Positions 12,033 to 32,904 of a stretch of 54,394 nt of DNA are shown here, one piece after another. Source of the stretch: an uncultured SAR116 cluster alpha proteobacterium (GTDB taxonomy: Bacteria; Pseudomonadota; Alphaproteobacteria; Puniceispirillales; Marisalimonadaceae); contig CACBDG010000016.1 in NCBI GenBank assembly GCA_902537945.1, positions 1-54,394 on the forward strand. Direction: 5' to 3'. The notes beneath the pieces are model-generated. The model saw nothing but the letters and a program-made list of their open reading frames with translations. It was not told where the DNA came from and did not search any database. The translations under genes and the position numbers were made by a program. How positions within the stretch are numbered: position 1 is the stretch's first letter; each line of letters opens with the position of its first letter.

Positions 12033-12437
12033 ATGGCCCAACTTTATGAGAAATGTATAAAAAACGGTCTGAGAATGACATTGCCTAGAAAAATTATACT
12101 AGAAGTAATAGAGGATTCAGCTGATCACCCTGATGTGGATGAAATGTATAGAAGAGCTGTTGAAAAAGATCGTTCAATCTCAATCGCAACTGTTTACAGA
12201 ACAATCAAATTATTTGAAGAGGCTGGAATAATTGAAAGATTAGATATTGGTGACGGCAGATCTCGATATGAAGAAGCTGGCGAACATCATGAACATTTAA
12301 TTGATGTAGAGAGTGGTGAAATCATTGAATTTCAGAACGAAGAACTAGAAGAAATGAAAAGGCAAGTAGCTCTTAATATGGGATATGAACTAGTAGATCA
12401 TAGATTAGAGTTATTTGGAAAAAAAATAAAAAAATAA
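12033..12437 (+). CDS. fur: Fur/Mur-family metal-responsive repressor
   Basis: 134 residues. The N-terminal winged helix has LRMTLPRKIILEVIE and SIATVYRTIKLFEEAGII (the recognition helix region, about 50-67). The metal-binding hinge is GEHHEHLIDVESGEIIEF (about 88-105), with a conserved His near the end (LVDHRLELFG). The enterobacterial structural-zinc CxxC motifs are absent, as in alphaproteobacterial Fur/Mur. It represses iron- or manganese-responsive genes when metal-loaded. Fur-box-like sites before itself, the SDR, the binding protein and the MbfA region make it the likely local regulator. Irr, a relative, is less likely because the HHEHLID pattern follows Fur/Mur. Confidence 0.85.
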   Translation: MAQLYEKCIKNGLRMTLPRKIILEVIEDSADHPDVDEMYRRAVEKDRSISIATVYRTIKLFEEAGIIERLDIGDGRSRYEEAGEHHEHLIDVESGEIIEFQNEELEEMKRQVALNMGYELVDHRLELFGKKIKK

Positions 12438-12487: not shown

Positions 12488-12502
12488 TAAGAATGATTAT
12501 CA
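12488..12502. promoter_or_regulatory. Fur-box-like site upstream of the SDR gene
   Basis: TAAGAATGATTATCA matches TGATAATnATTATCA with a perfect right half and 5 of 7 in the left half. It lies 20 nt before the ATG at 12522, the same geometry as the fur box. Confidence 0.5.
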
Positions 12503-13392: not shown

Positions 13393-14430
13393 TTACCAAC
13401 CCACCTGATCGATTATCATTTGTGCTTTTTTTGCATTTTTTGCAATCTCACTTATTGGTAAGCTATCTGACTTAAATGTACCCCATTCCATTATTTTGCC
13501 ATCAAGTTTAACTTTAGGATTTACTGGATATTCAAAATTAACATTTGCATAAATTTTCTGTGCTTTTGGCATAGTCAGCCATTCAATAAATCTTAGAGCT
13601 TCTTCACTATTTTTTGAATATTTTGCAATAGCCGCACCTGAAATGTTAACATGTTGTCCTCTATTACCTTGGTTATAGAATATTACTTCAGTAGCTCGTG
13701 CCCAATTTTTTTGTTCAGGTTTCTTTTCATTAAATTTCATTAATGCAAAATAATACGTATTCATTAAAACTATATCACACTCACCTGAGTAAATTCCTTT
13801 TGCTTGTGCTCTATCATTACCTTTTGGTTTTCTTGCAAAATTTGAAACTAAACCTTCTGCCCATGATTTTGCTTTTGCCTCACCTTTATGTGCAATTATT
13901 GAAGCCAATAATGCTCTATTATATGGGTGACTTCCAATTCTTGTACAGATTTTACCCCTGAACTTGGATTTTGCTAAATCTTCAATATCATTAATTTCAT
14001 TTTTATTAACTCTTTCTTTGGAAATACCTATTATTCGCGCTCTAGTGGATAAACTAACCCATTTTTTATTTATATCTCTTAAATGATTTGGAACATTTCT
14101 ATTTATTATGTCTGAGTTAATTTTTTTAACTAAATCCATATCCGCAAGCTCAGATAATCTTGAAATATCAACGGTAAGAATCACATCCGCAGGAGAATTT
14201 TTTCCTTCGGATTTGAGCCTTTGCGCGAGGCCTTTCTTAGCGTGTAAAACGTTAAATTTTACGGAAAATTCTTTTTCATACTCTTTAGTAAATGGTTCCA
14301 AAAGAGCAGGGCTTCGATAAGAGTAAATATTTATCTCATTTGCACTAGCGCGTTGAATGCCAAAAATTAAGATAGATAAACAAAAAATTAAGTTGAAAAT
14401 ACAAAATAATAAAGATTTAAGACTTTTCAT
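13393..14430 (-). CDS. Ferric iron ABC transporter substrate-binding protein (FbpA/FutA family)
   Basis: 345 residues from ATG at 14428-14430. A longer frame to 14496 exists, but its extra N-terminal residues are translated from a Fur box and are rejected. A signal peptide (about 1-30, ending RASANE) leads into INIYSYR, a typical start for Fe(III)-binding proteins of transferrin type. NTYYFALM carries the paired tyrosines that ligate iron in FbpA. The protein captures periplasmic ferric iron for the permease (10325). A Fur-box-like site lies 21 nt upstream of the start. It is 77 nt downstream of the MbfA-like gene. Confidence 0.87.
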   Translation of the reverse strand: MKSLKSLLFCIFNLIFCLSILIFGIQRASANEINIYSYRSPALLEPFTKEYEKEFSVKFNVLHAKKGLAQRLKSEGKNSPADVILTVDISRLSELADMDLVKKINSDIINRNVPNHLRDINKKWVSLSTRARIIGISKERVNKNEINDIEDLAKSKFRGKICTRIGSHPYNRALLASIIAHKGEAKAKSWAEGLVSNFARKPKGNDRAQAKGIYSGECDIVLMNTYYFALMKFNEKKPEQKNWARATEVIFYNQGNRGQHVNISGAAIAKYSKNSEEALRFIEWLTMPKAQKIYANVNFEYPVNPKVKLDGKIMEWGTFKSDSLPISEIAKNAKKAQMIIDQVGW

Positions 14431-14507: not shown

Positions 14508-15482
14508 TTAACCTCCACCTATCAATATACCAGCAGCTAGAACTAGTGATCCACCAAAAACCACTTGAAACACGGCTTTTGTAAATTTAATTTCCATATA
14601 TTTAGCTTGTATCCAAGCAATAGCCCAAAGCTCAACTAGTACAAAAAACATTGCAATCACTGTTGCAACATAAAAGTCAGAAATCAAATATGGGAGTGCA
14701 TGACCTAACCCCCCTATTGTGGTCATAATGCCTGAGGCAAACCCTCGCTTTATTGGTGAACCTCTCCCTGATATTACTCCATCATCATGTACAGCTTCTG
14801 TAAAACCCATTGAAATTCCAGCTCCTATAGATGCTGCTAAACCAACTAATAATGTTGTATGACTGTCTTTTGTTGCGAAAGCAGTAGCAAAAATTGGAGC
14901 TAAAGTTGAAACTGATCCATCCATAAGACCGGCAAGACCTGGCTGAACCCATGTTAGAATAAACTGTCTTTTATCTTTAGTAACTTCCTCTTTGGCACTT
15001 TGTGATTTTTTAGCATTCAATAATATCAATTTAGCATTATCTTTCTGCTCTCTACTCATTAATGCTAAGTCAATAAGTAAATTTCTAATTTCAATATTTT
15101 GGGATTTTTTAGCAAAGGAATTATAAAATTTAGCAGACAAAGTTTCCATTTCAATAATTTCATTTCTAACTTTTTCAATAGAATTCTTTATTACCAACCA
15201 TTCAGGTTTTCTTTTGAAATAATTAGCAATTTCTTTTTGGTTAGTAATGCTTAAAGTCTCACCAAATTTTTTTTTATGTAATTCAACTAATTTTTTTCTA
15301 TTTTTATTTTTTAAAATAGACATTTGTTTAAACATTTTTGATGTTACTGGGTAATTTATAAGAAAATGGGAAGAATACTCATCATATAATTTTATATCTT
15401 CTTCTAAACTATCAATTGCTAGAGATAATATTTCATTATCATTTAAGTCTTGAAATTTCTTTTTTATCAAAGATTTGTACAT
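14508..15482 (-). CDS. mbfA: MbfA-like membrane iron exporter: ferritin-like domain fused to VIT1/CCC1 domain
   Basis: 324 residues, the length of alphaproteobacterial MbfA. Residues 1-165 are a ferritin-like four-helix domain and about 170-324 a VIT1/CCC1 transporter (PGLAGLMDGSVSTLAPIF, MGFTEAVHDDG, GRGSPIKRG, several TM helices). MbfA exports iron and protects from iron and peroxide stress. In typical members the ferritin part has two EExxH motifs. Here the first position reads LKNKNRKKL (57-65) and the second SREQKDNA (143-150), so the His ligands are missing, while Glu27, Glu28 and Glu111/113 remain. The diiron site is probably defective. The start is ATG 15482; the upstream region holds two Fur-like boxes. 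Confidence 0.82.
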   Translation of the reverse strand: MYKSLIKKKFQDLNDNEILSLAIDSLEEDIKLYDEYSSHFLINYPVTSKMFKQMSILKNKNRKKLVELHKKKFGETLSITNQKEIANYFKRKPEWLVIKNSIEKVRNEIIEMETLSAKFYNSFAKKSQNIEIRNLLIDLALMSREQKDNAKLILLNAKKSQSAKEEVTKDKRQFILTWVQPGLAGLMDGSVSTLAPIFATAFATKDSHTTLLVGLAASIGAGISMGFTEAVHDDGVISGRGSPIKRGFASGIMTTIGGLGHALPYLISDFYVATVIAMFFVLVELWAIAWIQAKYMEIKFTKAVFQVVFGGSLVLAAGILIGGG

Positions 15483-15557
15483 AATGCATTCCCAAAGAGT
15501 TTTTTAATATATTAGTTTAATTAATAAGTCATTGAATTTATTATTTATTTTTGCAAA

Positions 15558-15572
15558 TGATAATAATTATTA
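15558..15572. promoter_or_regulatory. Fur-box-like site between mbfA and the small-RNA candidate
   Basis: TGATAATAATTATTA is a 7-1-7 dyad with one mismatch to TGATAATnATTATCA. It lies 76 nt from the mbfA start and 25 nt left of the next box, so it could serve either direction. Confidence 0.5.
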
Positions 15573-15590
15573 AAATAATTAAATATATTA

Positions 15591-15619
15591 TTGACAATGA
15601 TAATGATTATCATTATTGT
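15591..15619 (+). promoter_or_regulatory. Promoter-like TTGACA-17-TATTGT overlapped by a perfect Fur-type palindrome
   Basis: TTGACA (15591-15596) is a perfect -35 and TATTGT (15614-15619) a 4/6 -10 at 17-nt spacing. The spacer is filled by AATGATAATGATTATCATT (15596-15614), a perfect 9-1-9 inverted repeat containing TGATAATGATTATCA, the exact Fur consensus. Fur-metal binding would cover the promoter completely. It reads away from mbfA. Confidence 0.7.
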
Positions 15620-15625
15620 TAATAT

Positions 15626-15712
15626 ATGGATGAACTCAATATATATCTCCCAAGATTAATTAAGTTCATCCACATTTCATTTAAAAATGTATAACTATAA
15701 AAGATTTTTTTT
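15626..15712 (+). ncRNA. Candidate Fur-repressed small RNA (or long 5' leader of the downstream operon)
   Basis: Immediately after the Fur-boxed promoter, TGGATGAACT (15627-15636) and AGTTCATCCA (15663-15672) form a perfect 10-bp stem. Its 26-nt loop contains CTCCC (15647-15651), able to pair with Shine-Dalgarno sequences. A second small stem (ACATTT/AAATGT, 15672-15690) and a T-run (15705-15712) follow. No reading frame with an SD is present. The layout (iron-controlled promoter, short structured RNA, C-rich exposed seed) parallels RyhB-type regulators. The 3' end is uncertain, because the T-run is not tightly joined to a stem. The alternative is a leader of the dehydrogenase at 15794. This covers most of the 311-nt gene-free stretch 15483-15793. 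Confidence 0.42.
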
Positions 15713-15793
15713 ATAAATTACAAATATCTATTAAATCATTGTAAATGTTAATCGACCAAAGTAATATTTTATTAAAAAAATTTGGTATCACAC

Positions 15794-16921
15794 ATGAATA
15801 ATAATGAATTTCAGATAGCTACCGTACCTGGCGATGGGATAGGTAAAGACATAGTAAATTCAGCTATTTCAATTGTTGACTTGTCTTCAAAAATAACAAG
15901 TGGATTTAAATGTGAGTGGCATATGATCAAAGCAGGAGCTGAATATTATTCTTTGACTGGAAAAGATGTTGAGCCAGGAGGAGAAAAAAAAGTTGATGAA
16001 CTCGATAGCATTTTTTTAGGTGCAATTGGGTTACCTACTGTTCGTCATAAAGATGGAACTGAAATATGCCCTCACCTAAGATTTAGAGAAATGTTTGGTT
16101 TGTATGCAGGTGTAAGACCAGTAAAAGCATACAAAAACATACCAAATAGATTAAGTAATAAATTATCAAGTAATATAGATTTAATTATTTTAAGAGAATC
16201 TACTGAAGGATTATTTTACACTGCTGCTGTTCACAATAGATGTCCTGTTGAAAATGATCAAGAAGTGCAAGATGTAATGAAAATAACTAGAGCAACTACT
16301 GAAAAATTACATGATTTTGCATTTAAATTAGCAAGGCAAAGAAAGAAAAAAGGTAAGCTTGGAAAAGTTACTTGTGTAGATAAAGCTAATGTTTTCAGAT
16401 CACAGGCATTTTTCAGGAAAATATTTGATGAAAGAAAAATTAAATTCAAAGATATAGATGCTGACCATTGTTATGTTGATGCAATGGCACTCAACTTGAT
16501 CAGAAATCCTTGGGAATATGATGTAATGGTGATGGAAAACATGTTTGGTGACATATTATCTGATTTAGGAGGAGGCCTGATAGGAGGGATGGGTATGGCC
16601 TCATGTGCTGAAATAGGTGATAATCACGGGTTATTTCAACCTGCCCATGGAAGTGCGCCTGATATACTCGGACAGGATAAGGCTAATCCGATAGCTACTA
16701 TTTTAAGTGCATCTCTGATGCTCGAATATCTATCTGATAAAACAAGTTGTAAAAGTACTTTATTAGGTTCTAGATTAATTGAGACTGCAATTGAAATTGG
16801 TTTTGAAAGAAATGAATTAAGACCAATAGAATTTGGAGGTGATATGGGAACAACAGCGATAACCGAAACTTTAAGTGATTTATTAAAAGATAATGAAATT
16901 CAAAAACAAATATTAACTTAA
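15794..16921 (+). CDS. Isocitrate/isopropylmalate-dehydrogenase family enzyme of an acid-sugar operon
   Basis: 375 residues from ATG 15794; an in-frame TTG at 15782 is unsupported, and the SD is weak in either case. Family motifs: TVPGDGIGKDI (about 10-20), LRFREMFGLYAGVRP, LRESTEGLFY, VDKANVFR, ENMFGDILSDLGGG with the metal-binding Asp pair, and QPAHGSAPDI for NAD. It lacks the DHITLWG signature of the tartrate-type copies at 9162 and 51530 and so is a separate subfamily with unknown substrate. Co-location with a DUF1537 kinase suggests it oxidises a C4 hydroxy acid or phospho-acid, the role PdxA2 or LtnD plays in known pathways. The gap to the next gene is 18 nt. Confidence 0.82.
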   Translation: MNNNEFQIATVPGDGIGKDIVNSAISIVDLSSKITSGFKCEWHMIKAGAEYYSLTGKDVEPGGEKKVDELDSIFLGAIGLPTVRHKDGTEICPHLRFREMFGLYAGVRPVKAYKNIPNRLSNKLSSNIDLIILRESTEGLFYTAAVHNRCPVENDQEVQDVMKITRATTEKLHDFAFKLARQRKKKGKLGKVTCVDKANVFRSQAFFRKIFDERKIKFKDIDADHCYVDAMALNLIRNPWEYDVMVMENMFGDILSDLGGGLIGGMGMASCAEIGDNHGLFQPAHGSAPDILGQDKANPIATILSASLMLEYLSDKTSCKSTLLGSRLIETAIEIGFERNELRPIEFGGDMGTTAITETLSDLLKDNEIQKQILT

Positions 16922-30889: not shown

Positions 30890-31195
30890 ATGATACCTGG
30901 AGAAATTATTACAAAATCTGATGAAATCGTTTTAAATAAAGATTCTGACGCTTTAAAGATAAAAGTTTCAAATACAGGCGATAGACCAATCCAAGTTGGA
31001 AGCCACTATCACTTTTACGAAACAAACGAATTTTTATCTTTTGACAGGGATAAAACCAAAGGAATGAGACTAGATATTGCAGCTGGAACTGCAGTTCGCT
31101 TTGAACCAGGTCAAACAAGAGAGGTAAATTTAATCAATATCAAAGGTGATAAAAATATTTTTGGGTTTAATCAGAAAATTATGGGAGCCATGTAA
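30890..31195 (+). CDS. ureB: Urease beta subunit
   Basis: 101 residues, standard. [18 protein letters not shown] at the start, [18 protein letters not shown] (about 29-46), [18 protein letters not shown] and the final KIMGAM region are typical of UreB. It is an assembly subunit around UreC. Its TAA shares its last base with the ATG of ureC (TAATG), so translation is coupled. Confidence 0.97.
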
Positions 31196-32904
31196 TGAGT
31201 TCAAAAATAACAAGATCATCATATGCAGAAATGTTTGGCCCTACGACTGGTGACAAAGTTAGATTAGCTGACACAGACTTGTTTATAGAAGTTGAAAATG
31301 ATTTAACTGTATATGGCGAGGAAGTGAAATTTGGTGGTGGAAAAGTAATTAGAGACGGTATGGGCCAATCACAAGTTACAAGACAAGATGGCGCCGTTGA
31401 CACTGTTATTACAAACTCACTGATAGTTGATGTAAATGGAATATTTAAAGCCGATATTGGAATTAAAGATGGTATTATTCAAAAAATTGGAAAATCTGGA
31501 AATCCTGACACTCAACCAAAAATTGATATTATCATTGGACCTGGCACAGAAATAATCGCAGGTGAAGGTAAAATCATTACTGCAGGAGGATTTGATTCTC
31601 ACATCCACTATATATGTCCTCAACAAATTGATGATGCCCTGCATTCAGGTTTAACAACAATGCTAGGCGGTGGTACTGGACCTGCTCATGGAACATTGGC
31701 AACAACATGCACACCTGGATCTTGGCATATAGGTAAAATGATACAATCAGCGGATGCTTTTTCTATGAATCTTGCATTTGCTGGTAAAGGCAATTCTTCC
31801 AAACCAGAAGGATTAATTGAGCAGGTAAATGCTGGAGCTTGCGCACTTAAATTGCACGAAGATTGGGGAACCACTCCTGGTGCTATAGATAACTGTCTAA
31901 ATGTAGCTGACAAAATGGATGTTCAAGTAATGATACATACAGATACATTGAATGAAAGTGGATTTGTAGAAAATACTATAAAAGCTATTAATAATAGAAC
32001 AATTCATGCCTTTCATACTGAAGGTGCTGGTGGAGGACATGCTCCTGACATCATAAAAGTGTGTGGGAATGAAAATGTAATACCATCATCAACTAATCCA
32101 ACAAGACCATATACTATAAATACCTTAGAAGAGCATTTGGATATGCTTATGGTATGTCATCATTTAGATAAATCAATTCCTGAGGACGTTGCCTTTGCCG
32201 AAAGCAGGATAAGAAAAGAGACCATAGCTGCAGAGGATATCCTTCATGATTTAGGTGCCTTTTCAATTATAGCTTCTGACAGCCAAGCAATGGGAAGGGT
32301 TGGAGAAGTTATTATCAGAACTTGGCAAACAGCTCACAAAATGAAAGTTCAAAGAGGTCGTCTTCAAGAAGAAAAGGGTGATAATGACAATGTAAGAGTT
32401 AAAAGATATGTAGCTAAATACACAATTAATCCAGCTATAACTCACGGTGTATCTAAACATATAGGTTCAATAACTGAAGGTAAAAGAGCTGATATTGTGA
32501 TATGGGATCCAGCTTTTTTTGGTGTAAAACCAGAGACTGTCATTCTTGGTGGAAGCATTGCTTGTGCTCAAATGGGTGATCCTAATGCATCAATTCCAAC
32601 TCCACAGCCTGTATATACAAGACCAATGTTTTCTTCTTATGGAAGATCTCTAGAGACATCTTCAATTACTTTTGTAAGTAAAGATGCTATTAAATCTGGA
32701 AGTTTAGACTCATTAAAACTTGCTAAAAATACTGTTGCGGTGGAGAAAACAAGAGATATCTCCAAAAAAGATATGGTTTATAATAATTATTGCCCAGATA
32801 TTTCTGTTGATCCAGAAACATATGAGGTTTCAGCTGATGGGGAAATTCTTACCTGTGAGCCAGCTACAGAATTACCTATGGCTCAGAGATATTTTTTATT
32901 TTAG
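31195..32904 (+). CDS. ureC: Urease alpha (catalytic) subunit
   Basis: 569 residues, standard. All key elements are present: nickel ligands in [12 protein letters not shown] (HxH, about 134-145), carbamylated lysine in ALKLHEDWG (about 217-225), MIHTDTLNE and [12 protein letters not shown], and the mobile flap with MVCHHLD (His/Cys, about 318-324). It starts [20 protein letters not shown] as expected. It hydrolyses urea at a di-nickel site in the cytosol. There is no sign of degeneration. It is followed 8 nt later by ureE. Confidence 0.98.

Follow-up and report, generated by a model that had tools for sequence, protein, structure and literature searches.

Between a gene for iron storage or export and a gene of the isocitrate/isopropylmalate dehydrogenase family (Iso_dh), genomes of one SAR116 genus carry a compact module, in which a promoter overlain by a predicted Fur operator is followed by a conserved hairpin with an invariant, C-rich loop. 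The observation was made in a contig of an uncultured SAR116 alphaproteobacterium (54,394 nucleotides, the whole of which is referred to as the window); promoter, operator and hairpin are confirmed there, and the covariance search across relatives proposed in the initial annotation, once run, found the three together in 23 of 40 genomes of the genus. We tentatively read the module, with a confidence slightly short of even, as the source of an iron-starvation riboregulator that would act in trans, either as a free RNA or as a piece processed from a leader. The features referred to below are the following.

12033..12437, plus strand: Fur-family regulator (PF01475, 127.4 bits; the best NCBIfam model, ferric iron uptake regulator, scores 96.4 bits, below its cut-off of 146)
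14508..15482, minus strand: mbfA-like iron exporter gene (ferritin-like plus VIT1; Pfam Rubrerythrin and VIT1 above cut-off; NCBIfam FeExpMbfA at 447.7 bits, 2.3 below its cut-off of 450)
15556..15575, no strand: second, weaker Fur-like site on the mbfA side (TGATAATAATTATTA at 15558)
15591..15619, plus strand: sigma-70-type promoter, TTGACA-17-TATTGT (motif scan; sole exact copy in the window)
15596..15614, no strand: predicted Fur operator in the promoter spacer (exact 7-1-7 at 15598-15612)
15626..15673, plus strand: conserved hairpin at the inferred transcript start (23 loci, z -3.0 to -5.7)
15644..15657, plus strand: invariant loop core TATCTCCCAAGATT, including the C-rich apical loop (unchanged throughout the 23 loci)
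15674..15793, plus strand: unconserved stretch up to the Iso_dh start (25-53% between-group identity; T8 run at 15705-15712)
15794..16921, plus strand: Iso_dh gene (PF00180, 266.9 bits; no NCBIfam model at its cut-off; domain scans run on 15806-16918)

Promoter, predicted Fur operator and hairpin

The initial annotation had described TTGACA followed at 17 nt by TATTGT, with a perfect 9-1-9 palindrome across the spacer, and both are present. The -35 hexamer occupies 15591-15596 and the -10 hexamer 15614-15619, and the palindrome AATGATAATGATTATCATT (15596-15614) shares the last base of the former and the first base of the latter. The further claim of an exact Fur consensus holds for the 7-1-7 form TGATAATGATTATCA, which occurs once in the window against a mean of 0.0 in 100 dinucleotide shuffles, but not for the 19-bp form, since AATGATAATGATTATCATT agrees by eye at 17 of 19 positions with the E. 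coli consensus. Perfect 9-1-9 palindromes in general are not rare (four in the window vs 0.94 per shuffle), and a window-wide promoter scan returned 13 promoters compared with 12.5 in shuffles, i.e., no excess, so that what carries the case is the Fur motif together with conservation in relatives. There, TTGAC[ACT] is followed at 17 nt, a spacing imposed by the search script, by a TATT-like hexamer, and the spacer reads TGATAA..(A/T)TTATCAT or a near form in 23 of 23 loci. Groups B and C have TATTAA or TATCAA in place of TATTGT, of which TATTAA is a weak -10. A promoter overlain by a putative Fur operator is thus kept in the relatives. Additional Fur-like sites (up to two mismatches) are seen at 12488, 14451 and 15558, near the Fur-family gene, the solute-binding protein gene (at 13393) and mbfA, respectively, and the site at 15556..15575 is retained in G006, a genome without the hairpin.

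From the usual distance to the -10 hexamer, transcription would start at about 15626, where the hairpin begins. The perfect 10-bp stem with a 26-nt loop reported initially is formed by TGGATGAACT and AGTTCATCCA (15627-15636 and 15663-15672), and the CTCCC noted in the loop lies at 15647-15651; an inner mini-stem, AUCU-CCCA-AGAU, is nested within the hairpin. Perfect 10-bp stems with loops of 3-30 nt number 21 in the window against 7.7 per shuffle, and those with at least four G/C number three against 0.51. The RNA 15622-15722 folds at -18.8 kcal/mol (z -3.9), a value equalled by none of 200 shuffles, and in all 23 loci the predicted fold is one long hairpin with a CCCA apical loop (-10.8 to -16.6 kcal/mol). 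The loop core TATCTCCCAAGATT is identical in the 21 rows of alignment A3 as well as in the 23 loci; the identity is by construction for members found solely by a pattern that demands the core, while 20 were found without that demand, and G061, which was recovered by the covariance model, has the same core.

Compensatory base changes, whose absence in relatives had been named at the outset as a refutation, are nearly absent. The covariation score of alignment A5 was reached by 73 of 500 shuffles, i.e., there is no excess, and it rises from 0.038 for the actual structure to 0.137 when the partners are slid by +3. Two-sided changes affect two of the 12 pairs, compared with an average of 1.3 in shuffles; four pairs are invariant, one shows a G-C to U-A exchange in two distinct rows, and a G-U pair occurs in G061. 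By eye, two bases are lost on both arms in G036 and G013. Because the stem hardly varies, the covariation result says little for or against the structure, which accordingly rests on folding energy and sequence conservation.

Distribution and genomic surroundings

The sample of the order comprised 136 genomes, 40 of the window's genus and 96 others. A blastn search with the 260-nt region, in which the loop core was not demanded, identified 20 genomes with a full-length hairpin, and the pattern demanding the core identified 22 of the 40. Trained on 21 of these 22 members, a covariance model gave a strong match (E <= 1.8e-12) in 23 of the 40, with one strong place in each; it also weakly matches the opposite strand, the hairpin being near-palindromic. 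Of the 17 unmatched genomes, two (G006 and G031) contain the locus but no element, three are affected by contig edges (G004 starts inside the hairpin, G014 just after it, and G009 ends at the Iso_dh start), and the assemblies of the remaining 12 include no close Iso_dh orthologue. With the unmatched genomes so explained, the element is present in 23 of 25 readable loci.

Beyond the genus, the 96 other genomes of the order gave two weak matches, G070 (E 0.036) and G055 (E 0.072), the former of which coincides by eye with an open frame on the other strand. In a sample of the class (385 genomes), the model matched the window's own genome and, weakly, G253 (E 0.0019). A Fur-type promoter accompanies none of the weak extra matches outside the genus. 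A scan of a genome contig collection returned 25 stretches, 21 of which are from SAR116 or other alphaproteobacterial single cells; the other four (Algoriphagus, two Cloacimonadota and a Lachnospiraceae) have no Fur-type promoter. Viral contigs gave no match.

Conservation drops once the hairpin is passed: between groups (alignment A1), identity is 83-86% in the hairpin and 81-89% in the promoter block, and falls to 25-53% in the next 118 nt. Upstream of the element, 11 of the 23 loci have an mbfA-like gene (G061 and 10 members of group A). Another 11 have a gene that is bfr-like as judged from N-terminal sequence, with the family checked for G022 alone (TIGR00754), and the contig of G034 stops before the upstream gene is reached. 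In G022, a 174-aa ORF without Pfam or NCBIfam match, which has a Fur-type promoter of its own, is placed between bfr and the element (L137, 943-1467), and behind this ORF a separate promoter for the hairpin is retained. Sequence similar to the extra ORF extends to the contig end in G034. On the other side, a conserved Iso_dh codon motif follows 174-208 nt downstream in 23 of 23 loci. The gene itself was initially given an ATG start at 15794, whereas the ORF list begins it at TTG 15782; an ABM-domain ORF and then a 3-oxo-tetronate kinase are found downstream. The gene does not depend on the module, as G006, G031 and two g12 genomes have Iso_dh without it, and these comparisons show the module to be separable from its neighbours. 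In L017 (G026, contig 73), the Iso_dh frame changes after several dozen codons into a different reading, CaiB-like by eye, which looks like a misassembly or rearrangement.

Separate small RNA or start of the dehydrogenase message

A candidate small RNA, as initially put forward, is favoured by the Fur-type promoter, by the hairpin at the expected start, by the identical loop and by the end of conservation soon after it, but no convincing terminator follows. A standard scan of 14800-16600 found no terminator, and in the 23 loci nothing stronger than a weak fold (0 to -5.9 kcal/mol) precedes the T-runs that lie before Iso_dh. This check took 45 nt before each T-run, and the main hairpin was thereby cut in G018 and G063, where a T5 run occurs about 8 nt after the main stem. 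Terminator-like sites in the whole window number 12, 10 and 9, compared with 7.5, 8.8 and 5.8 in shuffles (31 vs about 22). A strong intrinsic terminator is seen after the solute-binding protein gene (13336-13297, minus strand), with 16 pairs and a T-run. A separate small RNA and the start of the Iso_dh message both fit these data.

That the hairpin forms the 5' end of an Iso_dh operon leader, with Fur controlling the operon and the hairpin stabilising the mRNA or binding a protein in cis, is a serious possibility, if one we would not call probable. Hairpin and gene are on the same strand, with neither a gene nor a convincing terminator between them in any of the 23 loci, and the downstream Iso_dh motif is constant where the upstream neighbour switches between mbfA-like and bfr. 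Clear intrinsic terminators are however few in the window as a whole, so that the absence of one before Iso_dh is weak evidence. The genomes in which Iso_dh lacks the module and the unconserved stretch after the hairpin likewise speak against a leader, and a never-varying unpaired loop core exceeds what mRNA stabilisation needs.

A leaderless short frame, read from the transcript start as [AG]TG GAT GAA CTC ..., such that the peptide or its translation matters, is unlikely. An ATG (10 loci) or GTG (13) does lie 6-9 nt after the -10 in all 23 loci, YLPR is read in 19, and several changes fall at third codon positions. A 2-nt deletion nevertheless shifts the frame in four of the 23 (G019, G036, G013 and G021), third positions within the loop core are invariant, and the peptides would vary in length from 11 to about 59 residues. 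Very unlikely, in our judgement, is a DNA-level inverted repeat through which a bound regulator would act on the flanking iron gene and on Iso_dh. Its position between divergent genes and its near-palindromic form as DNA, with the model matching the other strand, would suit such a site, but the invariant core is itself not a perfect inverted repeat, and no strong second copy is found at another gene in the genus, where the one further match, in G027, is weak (E 3.5e-4). That the Fur operator of the neighbouring iron gene merely happens to adjoin an unrelated hairpin is scarcely credible; palindromes are common in AT-rich sequence, as the count of perfect 9-1-9 palindromes illustrates, but the joint conservation in 23 genomes, including groups whose flanks can no longer be aligned, contradicts chance.

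The trans-acting riboregulator that we prefer would work as follows. Iron starvation would cause Fur to leave the operator, and the RNA, opening with the conserved hairpin of about 48 nt, would be made from the start that Fur otherwise represses. Its C-rich apical loop may then, and this we hold less firmly, pair with G-rich ribosome-binding regions, mainly in mRNAs of iron-using enzymes, without Hfq. The active form would be either a short RNA in its own right or a fragment that the Iso_dh mRNA releases from its 5' end, and its action could resemble that of staphylococcal IsrR, Bacillus FsrA or RyhB, although relatedness to none of these is claimed. The predicted operator, the joint conservation, the invariant core, the separability of the module, two neighbouring iron genes and some loop-complementary sites are consistent with action in trans. 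Counting against it are the lack of a terminator, covariation no higher than in shuffles and lower than in a slid control, candidate targets that are not conserved, and the weak TATTAA in groups B and C.

Candidate targets and relation to known iron-responsive RNAs

Target prediction with the loop, also proposed initially, yielded candidates whose sites are not kept from one group to another, and genome-wide there is no enrichment of long complements. In G000, TTGGGAGA occurs at 65 sites compared with 56 for the reversed control. When the three on the window's own contig are left out, eight of the 62 sites examined precede a plausible start. The genes concerned are moaA and an amidase (above NCBIfam cut-off), four that score below cut-off (xdhB-like, galactarate dehydratase-like, carboxylase-like and D-2-hydroxyacid dehydrogenase-like), a Urate_ox_N protein and one ORF without NCBIfam match. 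MoaA and xanthine dehydrogenase-type enzymes use iron. With partial matches that lack upstream sequence left out, the orthologue tables retained 28 of 32 genomes in the case of xdhB and 26 of 30 in that of moaA; since moaA of G001 has no upstream sequence, 25 genomes are informative for that gene. The moaA site TTGGGAGATAT is found in seven of 17 element-bearing genomes and in one of eight other informative genomes, and the xdhB site TTGGGAGAT in eight of 16 and four of 12, respectively. The presence of the moaA site does not clearly track the element, and group B has no complementary site at either gene.

In terms of longer complementarity, the 11-base complement CTTGGGAGATA, the prefix of which excludes the element itself, is rarer than its reversed control (14 vs 29 in the 40 genomes), whereas the 10-base complement TTGGGAGATA is commoner (50 off-locus sites vs 31 in seven genomes), with few sites preceding a start codon. 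Five of the 14 long-complement sites precede moaA (four) or xdhB (one). Upstream of moaA, CTTGGGAGATATATA is seen in G012, G023, G005 and G019, and by eye this site is complementary to the loop for 14 nt in G019 and for 15 nt in both G012 and G023. The loop might also pair with the ribosome-binding site of the mbfA-like gene or bfr, but this was found unconvincing (at most seven pairs by eye, energies of -3.1 to -10.6). The loop-complementary sites are at present a lead, and no evidence of regulation.

With respect to described RNAs, the initial statement that no small RNA with this sequence was known agrees with our searches, in which neither an Rfam family nor a description in the literature searched was found. 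At gathering score, Rfam has no match at the element and one elsewhere in the window. At E <= 10, 18 sub-threshold matches fall in 15580-15810; the best, a plant-type microRNA model on the other strand (E 0.084), is at the level of chance, and the PrrF model reaches 12.7 bits against a cut-off of 90 (E 9.2). The 5_ureB_sRNA model (RF02514) matches 31348-31636 on the minus strand, antisense within an ORF (31195-32904) that is urease alpha by eye, and this probably reflects the gene's own sequence similarity.

RyhB, PrrF and NrrF resemble the element in having a Fur operator over the promoter and in the induction to be expected under iron starvation. NrrF-type Fur-repressed small RNAs act with Hfq. 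RyhB and PrrF do so as well, according to PMC9410917, and in this dependence all three differ from an element in whose genus Hfq (PF17209) was found in none of 40 genomes, nor in the five that are at least 90% complete, many of the assemblies being incomplete. The same search was positive in Caulobacter, E. coli and other controls, and across the order it detected Hfq in 66 of 136 genomes, each of which belongs to one of the families f2-f4; none was found in the 58 genomes listed for the window's own family, f1. Hfq has likely been lost in this AT-rich SAR116 family. The initial description as RyhB-like is therefore not supported in the Hfq-dependent sense, and any action in trans would here have to be Hfq-independent.

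A closer parallel in design is IsrR of Staphylococcus, for which PMC9410917 describes Fur operators at the promoter, C-rich loops, stems conserved in sequence with little covariation, a poorly conserved terminator, an AT-rich genome and Hfq independence. A conserved, C-rich unpaired loop is likewise present in the element (CCCA in 23 of 23 predicted folds), and a Rho-independent terminator was not found there. IsrR is a mapped small RNA that comprises several stem-loops, ends in a Rho-independent terminator and has tested targets, whereas the SAR116 element has one hairpin, no convincing terminator and a predicted transcript; no sequence relation is claimed. FsrA of Bacillus subtilis is likewise under Fur regulation and uses a C-rich motif to pair with Shine-Dalgarno sequences (as cited in PMC9410917), but it needs the Fbp chaperones. 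RusT of Caulobacter crescentus is an alphaproteobacterial iron-starvation RNA with a conserved pairing loop, but differs, according to PMC11005374, by NtrYX control, by binding and needing Hfq, and by its length of 118 nt with a U-tailed terminator. The Pelagibacter element upstream of sfuA-C is a candidate structured RNA beside iron genes in a marine alphaproteobacterium (PMC2864753); it differs in preceding an iron-uptake operon.

The element is a plausible addition to a known kind, the Fur-controlled regulatory RNAs, and has no counterpart by sequence in Rfam and no description in the literature searched. It may be a small, Hfq-free counterpart of RyhB, a single 5'-terminal hairpin that arose where a gene for iron storage or export adjoins a dehydrogenase operon, a possibility that we regard as serious but less than probable. 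Iron limits growth over large areas of the ocean. If the preferred reading is true, an abundant marine group would possess an iron-sparing RNA in a lineage where no Hfq is found, and this would show how Fur-controlled RNA regulation works, or arises, without Hfq in Proteobacteria. It would also provide a testable, very small riboregulator, the loop of which is kept identical while its flanks change.
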